NCBI GenBank assembly: GCA_017559615.1 | Contig: JAFYRB010000096.1 | Span: forward strand, 1 to 16,707 | Source: Alistipes sp. | Lineage (GTDB): Bacteria > Bacteroidota > Bacteroidia > Bacteroidales > Rikenellaceae | Length of the DNA stretch: 16,707 bases | Direction: 5' to 3' | Shown here: piece after piece, positions 2,627 through 6,359 of the stretch | Layout: each line of letters starts with the position of its first letter | Numbering within the stretch: the stretch's first letter is position 1 | Notes under the pieces: model-generated | Database searches by the model: none | Told to the model about the DNA's origin: nothing | The model's input: the letters and a program-made list of their open reading frames with translations, nothing else | Position numbers and translations under genes: made by a program

Positions 2627-2846
2627 CTACTGATAGGACGATGATAAATTTTGAGCATAGATACAACTTTGGAATGGCTATTTTTGCAATGGCCACTATC
2701 ACTATGTCTATGCGAATGTGCCGTTAGGCACTCTCTTTTATATATGTGGTTACGTACCACATTCCTCTCCGACTGATAAATATTTTGCTCGCCATTTACG
2801 ATGGCGATATTGTATGTGTATATAACCTACTTAAGATACTACAACT
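2627..2846 (+). promoter_or_regulatory. structured leader RNA of the metY operon (candidate attenuator)
   Basis: About 220 nt of leader lie between promoter and metY. Visible elements are: a long-range pairing GCATAGATA (2655-2663) with TGTCTATGC (2705-2713), nine pairs including one G-U; hairpin A, GTGCC/GGCAC (2718-2731), followed by TCTCTTTTATATAT; hairpin B, ATGTGGT/ACCACAT (2744-2762, 5-nt loop); and hairpin C, TCGCCAT/ATGGCGA (2789-2807, 5-nt loop). Two AATGGC copies inside the leader frame (2673-2678, 2688-2693) can pair with GCCATT (2791-2796) of hairpin C, offering an alternative fold. The 11-mer TATAACCTACT occurs at 2621 and again at 2821. None of the three hairpins has a strong poly-U tract, so whether control acts on termination or on translation is open. 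No SAM riboswitch class is recognised. Confidence 0.55.
2641..2727 (+). CDS. Met-rich leader peptide (28 aa), probable methionine attenuator
   Basis: An ATG about 14 nt after the predicted transcription start opens a 28-codon frame ending in TAG. Six of 28 residues are Met (positions 1, 12, 17, 22, 24, 26), and three fall in the last seven residues, MSMRMCR. Met normally makes up only about 2-3% of protein. The frame lies directly between a strong promoter and an operon for homocysteine synthesis, and its stop codon sits in the loop of a small hairpin (2718-2731). This is the arrangement of amino-acid leader peptides such as the Thr and His leaders, in which ribosome stalling at the scarce amino acid's codons controls downstream expression. 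The peptide itself probably has no function. Coding status is inferred from placement and composition; I do not recognise it as a described peptide. Confidence 0.66.
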   Translation: MINFEHRYNFGMAIFAMATITMSMRMCR

Positions 2847-4130
2847 ATGAGCGATAGAAAACTACATTTCGAAACCTTGCAGATTCACGGCGGTTATCAC
2901 GTCGATGAGTCCAATGCGCGAGGTATTGCTATACACCCTACGGCAGCCTACCACTTCCCTACGTGTGATTATGCCGCTAACCTCTTCACGCTCAGCGAGC
3001 CAGGATATATCTACACTCGCTTGCATAACCCTACAACTTCGGCCTATGAGGAGCGTATCGCAGCACTCTATGGTGGTGTGGGGGCCTTGGCAACAGCATC
3101 GGGAATGTCGGCTATATTGTTGACTGTTACGGCGTTGGCAAAGGCGGGTGAGAATATCGTAGCCTCGCCATATCTCTACGGCGGTACGCACAACCAGTTT
3201 GTTATCTCGTTGCGTAACTTGGGCGTGGAGTGTCGCTTGGCAAAGAGCGATGCGAAGGAGGATATTGCCGAGATGATTGATGATAATACCCGCGCTATAT
3301 TTGTTGAGTCGATGGGTAATCCAACTTGTCGTGTGGCAGATATCGAGGCTTTGGCGGAGGTGGCACATAGCAACAACATTCCGCTTATCGTGGATAATAC
3401 CTTCGGTGCGGGAGGATACTTGTGTAACCCATTTGAGTGGGGCGCGGATATCATCACCGACTCGGCTACAAAGTGGATAAATGGTCACGGCACTGCAATG
3501 GGAGGTATCATCGTCGACAGCGGTAAGTTCGATTGGCGTGCTTCGGGCAAGTTCCCACAGATTGATGGCCCGTCGGAGGGTTACCACGGCCTTAACCTTT
3601 GCGATGCCTTTGGCTCACAGGCCTTTATCGTGAAGTGTAGGGTAGATGGTATGCGTGATTTCGGTTGCTGCCCTTCGTCGTTCGATGCCTATCTGATGTT
3701 GCTCGGCTTGGAGACCTTGTCGTTGCGCGTTAAGCACGAGGTGGAGTCTACCTATAAGTTGGCGGAGTTCTGCCGTCAGCACCCAAAGGTAGAGCGTGTT
3801 AGCTTCGTAGGCTTTGAGGACCACCCATCCTATGCCTTGGCACAGAAGTACTATCGTTATGGCGCCTCGGCGGTGTTGACTATCGAGCTTAAGGGCGACC
3901 TCGACTCTACTGTAAAGTTTGTTGAGAGTCTCAAGCTTTCGGCAAATATGACTATGATTGGTGTCTCTATTTCGGTTGTTACGCACCCAGCGTCAACCAC
4001 ACATAAGCAGCTCTCGGAGGAGGCGAAGCGTGCTGCGGGCATCACACCTACGTTGCTTCGTATCTCTCTCGGCTTGGAGAACGTAGAGGATATCATTGCG
4101 GATTACGAGCAGGCGTTATCTAACATCTAA
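2847..4130 (+). CDS. metY: O-acetylhomoserine sulfhydrylase (O-acetylhomoserine aminocarboxypropyltransferase)
   Basis: A 427-residue cytoplasmic PLP enzyme of the Cys/Met-metabolism (gamma-family) fold, full length for MetY. It makes homocysteine from O-acetylhomoserine and sulfide. Visible signatures are YTRLHNPTT (56-64, phosphate/PLP contact from the neighbouring subunit), ATASGMSA (82-89), ESMGNPTC (154-161), VDNTFGAGG (182-190) and the Schiff-base Lys K209 in DSATKWINGHG. Length and the GYHGL region favour MetY over the shorter cystathionine gamma-synthase. It is first in the operon, 22 nt before metX; with MetX it forms the acetylation/direct-sulfhydrylation route. Expression is probably governed by the Met-rich leader upstream. 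The last codons and stop form the first copy of a 12-nt tandem duplication. Confidence 0.95.
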   Translation: MSDRKLHFETLQIHGGYHVDESNARGIAIHPTAAYHFPTCDYAANLFTLSEPGYIYTRLHNPTTSAYEERIAALYGGVGALATASGMSAILLTVTALAKAGENIVASPYLYGGTHNQFVISLRNLGVECRLAKSDAKEDIAEMIDDNTRAIFVESMGNPTCRVADIEALAEVAHSNNIPLIVDNTFGAGGYLCNPFEWGADIITDSATKWINGHGTAMGGIIVDSGKFDWRASGKFPQIDGPSEGYHGLNLCDAFGSQAFIVKCRVDGMRDFGCCPSSFDAYLMLLGLETLSLRVKHEVESTYKLAEFCRQHPKVERVSFVGFEDHPSYALAQKYYRYGASAVLTIELKGDLDSTVKFVESLKLSANMTMIGVSISVVTHPASTTHKQLSEEAKRAAGITPTLLRISLGLENVEDIIADYEQALSNI

Positions 4131-4152: not shown

Positions 4153-5175
4153 ATGAGTTACGTCTATCATTGTAGTGAGCCTCTGGTGTTGGAGTCGGGT
4201 GCGGTGCTTTCGGAAGTCGATATCACCTACGATACCTTTGGTACGCTCAACGAGGCGAAGGATAACGTGATATGGGTGTGCCACGCTCTTACGGCAAACT
4301 CTGATGTTGCCGATTGGTGGCCTCATACCGTTGAGCAGGGGCGCTTCCTCGATCCTACGCGCTACTTTATCGTCTGCGCCAACTTCCTCGGCTCGCATTA
4401 TGGCACAACCTCGCCGCTCTCGGTAAACCCTCTTACGGGCGAGAAGTATTACTACGATTTTCCGCAGATTACGGTGCGTGATATGGTGCGTTGTCATCAG
4501 CTCCTTGCTCGCCACTTGGGCGTCGAGCGTGTTAAGATGCTGATTGGTAGCTCTATTGGTGGTTTCCAATGTATGGAGTGGGCGATTATGGAGCCTCACT
4601 TTATGGAGAATCTCGCGCTTATAGCAACCACAACTTGTTCGGAGCCGTGGGCTGCAGCCTTTAACGAGTCGCAGCGTATGGCAATCCGTCTGGATAAGAC
4701 GTGGGGCGAACGTAGGGATGATGCGGGAATAGATGGTATGGCCGTTGCACGCTCCATAGCCCTTATCAGTTATCGCGGAGGTGCGGCATATAACGCTACG
4801 CAGCAGGAGCAGCAGGAACTTAACGAGGTGTCGTTCTCGCGCCGTGCGCATACCTATCAGCAGTATCAGGGCGAGAAGCTACGCCGTAGGTTTAACGCTC
4901 TCTCCTATTACCGCCTATCGGAGGCTGTCGACTCGCATAACATAGCGCGTGGCAGGGAGAGCATCGCCAAGGCGTTGCAGAGCATCGAGGCCCGCACGTT
5001 GGTGGTTGCCATATCGTCCGATATCCTCTTTCCGCCCGAGGCACATACGCCACTTAGGGAGCATATCCGCGATGTGGAGTATCATCTCATAGAGTCGGAG
5101 TTTGGTCACGATGGCTTCCTTGTGGAACATGAGAAATTAAATAGAATTATTGATAACTTTATAAATCACAGATAG
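4153..5175 (+). CDS. metX: homoserine O-acetyltransferase
   Basis: A 340-residue alpha/beta-hydrolase-fold enzyme that transfers acetyl from acetyl-CoA to homoserine, giving the substrate of MetY. The catalytic triad is visible: nucleophile S134 in GSSIGG, D290 in SSDILFPPE, H319 in EFGHDGF. Other family marks are WVCHALTANSDVADWW (41-56), CANFLGSHYGTTSP (75-88) and GFQCMEWA. The start at MSYVYHC was chosen because an upstream in-frame ATG (4096) would overlap metY and add sequence unlike the family; the chosen ATG lies 22 nt after the metY stop. It ends 2 nt before hom, so translation is probably coupled. The length fits the short MetX class. Serine rather than homoserine as acceptor cannot be excluded from sequence alone, but the neighbours argue for homoserine. 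Confidence 0.94.
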   Translation: MSYVYHCSEPLVLESGAVLSEVDITYDTFGTLNEAKDNVIWVCHALTANSDVADWWPHTVEQGRFLDPTRYFIVCANFLGSHYGTTSPLSVNPLTGEKYYYDFPQITVRDMVRCHQLLARHLGVERVKMLIGSSIGGFQCMEWAIMEPHFMENLALIATTTCSEPWAAAFNESQRMAIRLDKTWGERRDDAGIDGMAVARSIALISYRGGAAYNATQQEQQELNEVSFSRRAHTYQQYQGEKLRRRFNALSYYRLSEAVDSHNIARGRESIAKALQSIEARTLVVAISSDILFPPEAHTPLREHIRDVEYHLIESEFGHDGFLVEHEKLNRIIDNFINHR

Positions 5176-5177
5176 TT

Positions 5178-6359
5178 ATGAAAAATATTAACATAGGCCT
5201 TTTTGGATTTGGTAATGTAGGTCGTGGCCTTTATGACGTGTTGCAGCGTATCGACTCGAAGAGTGTGCATATCAAACGTATCTGCGTTCGTGACTTGGAG
5301 AAGGAGCGTGGCGTGAAGGCGGAGTTTACAAACCGCGCTGACGATATCTTCGCAGATAAGGATATCAACCTTATTGTTGAGGTTATCGACGATGCCGAGG
5401 CTGCTTATGATATTGTTAAGCGTGCGTTGAAGGCTCGCATCCCCGTAGTTTCGGGAAATAAGAAGATGCTCGGCCACCATATCTTGGAGCTTATTGACCT
5501 TCAGGAGCAGTACAATACTCCGCTGTTGTACGATGCATCGGCGTGTGGCTCTATCCCTGTTATCCGTAACCTCGAGGAGTACTACGATAACGACCTTCTC
5601 ACGTCGGTTAAGGGTATCCTCAATGGCTCGTCAAACTTCATCCTCTCGAAGATTTTCAACGAGCATATGAGCTACGAGGCTGCGTTGAAACTTGCTCAGG
5701 ATTTGGGCTTCGCGGAGAGCAACCCTACGCTCGATATTGATGGTTGGGATTCGTTGTATAAGCTTATCATCATCACTGTTCACGCCTTTGGTGTTTACGT
5801 TGCACCAGAGAATATCCTCACCTATGGTATCTCTACGATGAACGATGCCGATATCCGCTTCGCGCAGGAGAAGGACCGCCGTATAAAGCTCGTTGCTCAC
5901 GTTGAGAAGATTGACAACCGCCTTATTATGTGCGTGTTGCCACAGCTTATCTCGCGCAATAAGTATATATATAGCGTTGAGGATGAGTTCAATGGCGTGG
6001 TTATCAAGGGCTTGTTCTACGACAAGCAGTTTATGTTCGGCCGTGGTGCTGGTGGCCATCCTACTGGCTCTGCAGTGTTGAGCGATATCACGGCGTGTGG
6101 CTATAACTACCGCTATGAGTATAAGAAGCGTAACGATTCGGTGTTGCCACAGTACACTACCGACCACACCTTCCGCGTCTACTTCCGTTATAAGAGTGCC
6201 GAGCAGCGTAACTTGCTTAATTTCACGAAGATTCGCGAGCAGTATACATCCGATACCTATAACTATATCGTAGGTGATGTTACGGTTTCGAACCTCAAGG
6301 CACATCAGGAGGAGCTTCGCGTTGCAGATTGCTTCGTAGCGGCTTATCCATTGGACTAA
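5178..6359 (+). CDS. hom: homoserine dehydrogenase (monofunctional)
   Basis: 393 residues; reduces aspartate semialdehyde to homoserine with NAD(P)H, feeding MetX. The N-terminal Rossmann fold has GLFGFGNVGRG (7-17). The catalytic domain shows NGSSNFIL (149-156, usually NGT.NYIL), NPTLDIDGWDSLYK (182-195) with the substrate-site acids and Lys, and GRGAGGHPTGSAVLSD (288-303). No aspartokinase domain is fused. About 90 residues follow the catalytic domain and may be a small divergent regulatory module; no ACT motif is clear. Some canonical spots differ (EVIDD for E-[LI]-[IM]-G-G, SGNKKM for TANKAL), perhaps a Bacteroidetes variant. The start lies 2 nt after the metX stop. It is last in the met operon, before a strong terminator. 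It might also supply homoserine for threonine. Confidence 0.93.
   Translation: MKNINIGLFGFGNVGRGLYDVLQRIDSKSVHIKRICVRDLEKERGVKAEFTNRADDIFADKDINLIVEVIDDAEAAYDIVKRALKARIPVVSGNKKMLGHHILELIDLQEQYNTPLLYDASACGSIPVIRNLEEYYDNDLLTSVKGILNGSSNFILSKIFNEHMSYEAALKLAQDLGFAESNPTLDIDGWDSLYKLIIITVHAFGVYVAPENILTYGISTMNDADIRFAQEKDRRIKLVAHVEKIDNRLIMCVLPQLISRNKYIYSVEDEFNGVVIKGLFYDKQFMFGRGAGGHPTGSAVLSDITACGYNYRYEYKKRNDSVLPQYTTDHTFRVYFRYKSAEQRNLLNFTKIREQYTSDTYNYIVGDVTVSNLKAHQEELRVADCFVAAYPLD

Follow-up and report, generated by a model that had tools for sequence, protein, structure and literature searches.

A Conserved Methionine-Rich Leader Frame Upstream of metY-metX-hom in Rikenellaceae and Its Probable Role in Sensing Methionine Supply

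The locus and its leader frame

The window analyzed here is a stretch of 16,707 nucleotides from a contig of Alistipes sp. (Rikenellaceae; GenBank assembly GCA_017559615.1, contig JAFYRB010000096.1), in which a short open reading frame (ORF) rich in methionine codons is located between a promoter and the genes metY, metX and hom. The features of this region are the following.

2359 to 2562, + strand: cold-shock-like small protein (NCBIfam matches below cut-off)
2590 to 2620, + strand: promoter read from the sequence, TTTG (2590 to 2593), 19-nt spacer, TACCTTTG (2613 to 2620)
2641 to 2727, + strand: leader ORF of 28 codons with six Met codons, ending MSMRMCR-TAG (sequence; conservation in relatives)
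2847 to 4130, + strand: metY, O-acetylhomoserine sulfhydrylase (TIGR01326, E 1.6e-164, above cut-off)
4153 to 5175, + strand: metX, homoserine O-acetyltransferase (best match TIGR01392, E 1e-101, below its cut-off)
5178 to 6359, + strand: hom, homoserine dehydrogenase (NF004976, above cut-off)

Positions 2641 to 2727 translate as MINFEHRYNFGMAIFAMATITMSMRMCR, followed by the stop codon TAG at 2725 to 2727, with Met at residues 1, 12, 17, 22, 24 and 26. An earlier note on this DNA had described a 28-codon frame with six Met codons, and its coordinates, frame and Met count all proved correct. The same holds for the promoter that it had placed in front of the short ORF: TTTG, 19 nt and TACCTTTG, which we take to be the Bacteroidetes −33/−7 promoter form, leave 20 nt between the −7 element and the ATG and about 14 nt between the inferred start site and the ATG. 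Among dissimilar copies of the leader in relatives, a TAnnTTTG element is found 5' of the leader in 55/59 and lies 15 to 30 nt from the ATG in 49/59. The leader stop is separated from the metY start by 119 nt in the window and by at least 94 nt in relatives, and the predicted fold of positions 2626 to 2855 exceeds that of shuffled sequences in stability (z −3.2). Two smaller observations concern the same region: an exact 11-nt repeat, TATAACCTACT, occurs at the inferred transcript start (2621 to 2631) and again 15 nt before metY (2821 to 2831), and 12 of 28 close relatives, the window counted, have ACCTAC after the −7 element.

Taken alone, the ORF is only moderately unlikely to have arisen by chance. 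Dinucleotide shuffles of positions 2563 to 2846 yield a + strand ORF of at least 12 amino acids with at least six Met in 13 of 5000 cases, and a single one of the 110 ATG ORFs of 12 to 45 amino acids in the window reaches at least six Met. These statistics are too mild to establish the leader, which is accepted as real because it is conserved across relatives.

Conservation, coding signature and RNA structure

In a genome scan based on metY, five ruminant Alistipes metagenome-assembled genomes (MAGs) with metY 88–91 % identical to that of the window all carried an ORF ending in MRMCR-stop, located 118–131 nt 5' of metY, while two Rikenellaceae MAGs with a 72 % identical metY were without it. 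Next, 268 family genomes were screened with the pattern MRMCR-TAG, allowing up to one mismatch, and with the reversed pattern as control, giving matches in 93/268 genomes and in 15/268 for the control. Of 95 inspected loci, including the window, 78 have metY downstream (74 exact matches and four with one mismatch), one exact match runs off its contig, and the 16 others, all with one mismatch, are without metY; twelve further one-mismatch matches were left out, none of which is recovered by a covariance model at E≤0.01. The covariance model R1 locates 80 copies of the element in 79/268 genomes of the family, and all copies with downstream sequence left lie 5' of metY, including those in the only two genomes that are new compared to the pattern search (G101 and G236). 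metX follows metY in all 46 copies with enough sequence. Comparison thus shows, within this family, an element specific to metY. The conservation check on relatives proposed in the earlier note was run, with the result that the short frame and its terminal Met codons are kept.

MRMCR-stop as a general leader tail of other operons was rejected, as exact and model matches with downstream sequence all precede metY. A spread of the window's leader type through the order was likewise rejected: the three matches in 393 sampled genomes are G003 itself and two sites inside unrelated genes. Five close relatives with a 90–92 % identical metY (L177–L181) are without the leader, and their promoter is found directly 5' of metY. 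One genome bin (G079) has a metY on each of the contigs C48 and C65, and the leader is present at a single one of the two (L118, L179); this bin may be mixed.

Two lines of evidence address the translation of the leader, both taken from the part upstream of the core, where the frame bias is outside what the search pattern selected. In 60 copies of below 80 % similarity to one another, the three frames of the 75 nt before the core contain 202, 0 and 10 ATG codons, and stop codons are distributed 1, 20 and 53 over the three frames of the last 45 nt. Between start and tail, Met accounts for 139 of 1181 variable residues (11.8 %) in 56 of the 60 peptides, the other four being dropped since their first ATG makes them longer than 45 amino acids. 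Met density is highest 7 to 10 residues from the end. In one sub-group (L161–L164) the leaders comprise just 12–13 amino acids, with Met only at the start and in MRM. Comparison among relatives confirms the leader as a real, coding and conserved Met-rich ORF, and it also shows selection on its Met codons as far as can be judged from sequences.

The strongest conservation is found in a hairpin at the stop codon, which was absent from the earlier account. It belongs to a near-invariant core and is followed by a second hairpin.

2710 to 2731, + strand: near-invariant core ATGCGAATGTGCCGNTAGGCAC, MRMCR-stop plus GCAC (alignment of relatives)
2718 to 2731, + strand: hairpin H1, GTGCC-GTTA-GGCAC, with the stop TAG in the loop and the first base of the 3' arm
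2745 to 2761, + strand: hairpin H2, TGTGGT-TACGT-ACCACA (covariation)

The invariance of the core is partly selected, with pattern and covariance model both built on it. Even so, the first Arg codon is CGA and the Cys codon TGC in 78/78 metY-linked copies, though the pattern permitted CGN and TGY, and GCAC 3' of the stop, which is outside the pattern, deviates only by two A-to-G changes among 59 copies. Variation is seen in the final Arg codon of the tail, with CGT in 47, CGA in 17, CGC in nine and CGG in three of the 78 copies and Leu in two. The Arg CGA between the two fixed Met codons (2713 to 2715 in the window) is possibly decoded slowly. Among relatives, no consistent pairing partners were found for core nucleotides 4 to 8.

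H1 is paired in 59/59 copies with a mean ensemble pairing of 0.91–0.96. In the two TAA variants L146 and L156, and likewise in L137, an extra base keeps its stem, and in L245 H1 is kept with the stop lost from the loop. H2 sits 11–14 nt after H1 in relatives and covaries: 84 cells are changed on both sides compared to 28.0±8.6 in shuffles, and the covariation score amounts to 0.319 compared to 0.157, with 0/500 shuffles as high in either case. The number of H2 pairs with a double change is six, which is not above shuffles (156/500). By this comparison both hairpins are shown to be conserved, and the leader is an RNA element as well. A possible pause of RNA polymerase after H1 found no clear support; TG is enriched 11–16 nt past H1, but H2 begins there.

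A second leader type and the output step

Upstream regions of metY without the exact motif were analyzed in 78 cases among the matches listed down to about 66 % identity, two of them clipped; G006 and G007 (L006 and L007) as well as G240, which starts at a contig end, were excluded from these 78. Of the 78, 27 were flagged, comprising 21 with a second type of Met-rich leader, which we call type 2, two variants of the window type (L182, L245) and four that were judged to be chance (L181, L195, L200, L247). Type 2 leaders, exemplified by MDARTTYRMNTGMVSFGTMMMVMCMCSRICRV followed by a stop codon, mostly end in codons such as CGC-CGG-GTG-TAG. Met makes up 134 of 681 residues (about 20 %) in 22 type 2 peptides and is found 8 codons before the stop in 22/22 and 10 codons before it in 21/22. 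A strong intrinsic terminator precedes metY in all 21 type 2 loci, but in only 9/57 of the other upstream regions, and GCCGG at the ORF end is complementary to CCGGC in the 5' arm of this terminator.

Pairing was scored with a ribosome placed on the leader, leaving out three of the 21 type 2 loci. A ribosome on the stop codon lets the terminator form fully in 18/18 scored loci, and with a ribosome on the last Met codon the equilibrium pairing of the putative antiterminator averages 0.26 (n=18). In L213 the last Met codon is directly next to the stop, so that the same state is scored twice and the locus is uninformative; aside from it, the values range from 0 to 0.98 with a mean of about 0.22. 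Type 2 is laid out as a classical textbook attenuator, with intrinsic termination as its very likely last step.

A covariance model of type 2, R2, finds this leader in 27 genomes at E≤1e-8, with none among the 79 window-type genomes. At E≤0.01 it reports 87 genomes, and the loci inspected past the 27 are L294, L295 and L296. In six R2 genomes fetched later, all leaders precede a metY (TIGR01326 above cut-off) 46–47 % identical to the window's. In the sample of 393 genomes three match at E≤1e-6, namely G153 itself, a real case in G406 and a spurious one in G320. L294 (in G145) combines a Met-rich leader and a terminator beside a gene that, by eye, resembles an outer-membrane efflux component, and no metY was seen downstream of it. 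Distant metY genes occur behind both leader types, 50–53 % identical to the window's in L160–L164 and L167 for the window type and 46–47 % in L275, L286, L289 and L291–L293 for type 2, which would fit a replacement of metY behind the leader.

Turning to the output step in the window's own leader type, two features downstream of H2 need to be considered.

2766 to 2815, + strand: stretch after H2, possible Rho loading site (inferred from the excess of C over G in relatives)
2789 to 2807, + strand: hairpin TCGCCAT-TTACG-ATGGCGA with tail TATTGTATGT, 40–58 nt before metY

A search for intrinsic terminators in window-type loci gave a terminator-like site in 7/77, five of which, including that of the window, are H1 itself, followed by a poor tail. 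In a looser scan the window holds two terminator-like sites, H1 and the hairpin at 2789 to 2807, compared to 0.2±0.5 in shuffles, and a hairpin similar to the latter occurs in near relatives. We did not read these two as terminators because their tails, TCTCTTTTAT for H1 and TATTGTATGT for the hairpin at 2789 to 2807, are broken and not conserved, with no run like that of type 2; weak termination may still occur at H1. Seventeen tests for long-range pairing among leader, H1, H2 and metY start found nothing beyond chance in the window type and with it no competing antiterminator, and a stem between the 5' UTR and the stretch after H2 looks convincing in a few relatives only, with z −1.0 over the whole set.

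The stretch located 38–88 nt past the stop contains more C than G in 55/59 window-type loci versus 7/15 type 2 loci and 15/54 upstream regions without a leader, the latter control often falling inside the upstream gene. The window shows no more than a marginal excess, with 10 C to 9 G. The C excess fits Rho-dependent termination and hints at it, but proves nothing. As the last step in the window type, Rho-dependent termination is possible and likelier than any other single option, if only tentatively so. A distinct class of methionine switch, in which a ribosome at MRM, either short of Met or sensing the nascent MRMCR, unfolds H1 and thereby blocks Rho-dependent termination of metY-metX-hom with no intrinsic terminator involved, is conceivable but rather unlikely.

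Other known means of methionine control were searched for in parallel. Rfam covariance models matched neither the window at gathering score nor positions 2560 to 2900 at E≤1, whereby a known Rfam element such as a SAM riboswitch or T-box was rejected as the identity of the leader. A survey of 16 related genomes, 12 with the window type and four with type 2, found no SAM-I and no T-box and three SAM_alpha matches, all below cut-off. SAM-II (RF01726) is present above cut-off in 15 of the 16, each directly before metK (L301–L315), so that these genomes do have SAM sensing, but at another place. In G038, a second and weaker SAM-II copy (L316) precedes another gene.

Probable methionine sensing by the leader and its alternatives

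We consider it probable, with good confidence, that a translated leader peptide makes metY-metX-hom respond to the supply of methionine. The Met-codon-dependent attenuator proposed in the earlier note is supported in this respect, and sensing by Met codons appears to be the best reading because frame, terminal Met codons and promoter are conserved and because an independent Met-rich leader with a terminator, type 2, precedes metY as well. The attenuator layout of type 2, the shared target and the shared Met codons would extend this reading to the window type.

Transcription would start a dozen or so nt 5' of the leader ATG, and the leader would be translated by ribosomes. A shortage of charged tRNA-Met would make these stall on the clustered Met codons, chiefly those of the fixed MRM before the stop, and when Met is sufficient they would finish the leader and leave. 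As the stop codon lies within H1, the position of the ribosome may decide H1 folding and so set metY expression: given the size of a ribosome, one waiting on either fixed Met codon would cover the 5' arm of H1, and a departed one would let H1 fold. What we infer here is that ribosomes stall, which way expression responds and how the final step operates. To our knowledge, methionine is the only amino acid that, when scarce, limits translation initiation as well, and a lack of Met should lower initiation on the leader too. This speaks against a Met-codon sensor, as do the lack of a convincing terminator and of long-range pairing beyond chance in the window type, the relatives that have a 90–92 % identical metY and no leader, and the four leaders of 12–13 amino acids with Met only at the start and in MRM. 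Furthermore, conservation of the core at the nucleotide level, with Arg CGA in every metY-linked copy, is left unexplained by codon starvation.

The same Met-codon sensor might also act without premature termination, by translational or mRNA-stability control through folding near metY or decay. The lack of a convincing terminator in the window type and the hairpin shortly before metY in the window would suit such a mode, but leader and H1 show no conserved pairing with the metY start region and the sister group with type 2 has an intrinsic terminator; this alternative is rather unlikely. Less probable still, in our view improbable, is an arrest peptide whose nascent MRMCR contacts the exit tunnel and senses Met or a derivative directly, much as TnaC senses tryptophan, with the Met codons being no starvation signal. 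Such a peptide would account for a nearly fixed tail behind a free N-terminus, for the R and C of the tail being fixed as well as M, and for the shortest leaders retaining just the tail. However, most synonymous sites of the tail (CGA and TGC) are fixed too, so that at least part of the constraint acts at the RNA level. Tails ending MRMCL-stop (L137, L165) and SQRMCR-stop (L182) exist, one relative (L245) has lost the stop from H1, Met is enriched far 5' of the tail, and type 2 has a different tail yet keeps its Met runs.

An untranslated structured RNA, be it a riboswitch or a protein-binding site with the frame as a by-product, is very improbable: it would fit the nucleotide-level conservation of the core, the conserved H1 and H2 and the scant amino-acid conservation 5' of the tail, but not the extreme ATG and stop frame bias 5' of the core, the stop that stays in frame, be it TAG or TAA, while an extra base maintains the stem, or the Rfam result. 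A chance open frame, for which the few shuffles that equal its Met count could be cited, is rejected with virtually no probability left to it by family-wide conservation in 79 genomes, always 5' of metY where sequence remains, and by the frame bias.

If true, Met-codon sensing conserved in this family of gut bacteria would add methionine to the reach of the attenuation principle, and one family would use the same kind of sensor with two outputs, one with an intrinsic terminator and one without. It would also suggest a division of labor in which SAM acts on metK via SAM-II and Met codons act on Met synthesis. In the literature searched, no Met leader peptide or Met attenuator was found by title or start of abstract, and Lopatovskaya et al. 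(2010) may hold earlier cases. In the available parts of the following sources, strong indications of leader-peptide attenuation are reported ahead of amino-acid operons of Flavobacterium psychrophilum, with no amino acid named there (PMC9723704), small ORFs resembling leader peptides are described in Bacteroides thetaiotaomicron (PMC7366714), and a conserved RNA element was not found upstream of actinobacterial Met operons (PMC1262725); attenuation or a leader was not found in the accessible part of PMC9026213. Within this literature, Met most likely represents a new attenuator specificity, and the window form an unusual architecture.

Among known systems, the metXZ RNA element of beta-proteobacteria is described, in the accessible text, as a candidate control before metX/metZ with terminators and a possible pseudoknot (PMC4239095). 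The description seen there mentions no leader peptide, which sets this element apart from the leader. According to the same partial source, SAM riboswitches control Met genes, including metY in alpha-proteobacteria (PMC4239095). SAM-I and SAM-II share this target with the leader, but the window is without either, and the SAM-II of relatives is located before metK. In E. coli, tnaC and the topAI upstream ORF (uORF) consist of a short ORF followed by an untranslated C-rich leader without an intrinsic terminator. Such Rho-dependent uORF attenuators, the subject of papers on topAI (PMC12121999) and TnaC (PMC8429421), resemble the window type in the short ORF, the terminator-less untranslated leader and the C-rich stretch, with Rho as the putative factor here. 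The attenuators listed in the accessible part of PMC3766115 respond to His, Leu, Thr and Trp, also to Ile/Val and Phe, and Met is not among them. The classical his, thr, leu, trp, ilv and phe attenuators of Proteobacteria are like the leader in having a short ORF near the transcription start before a biosynthetic operon and in the richness of this ORF in end-product codons. Type 2 further shares with them an intrinsic terminator, the 5' arm of which is the complement of the ORF end, whereas the window type differs from them by a near-invariant core and a stop codon inside a hairpin in place of a convincing terminator.
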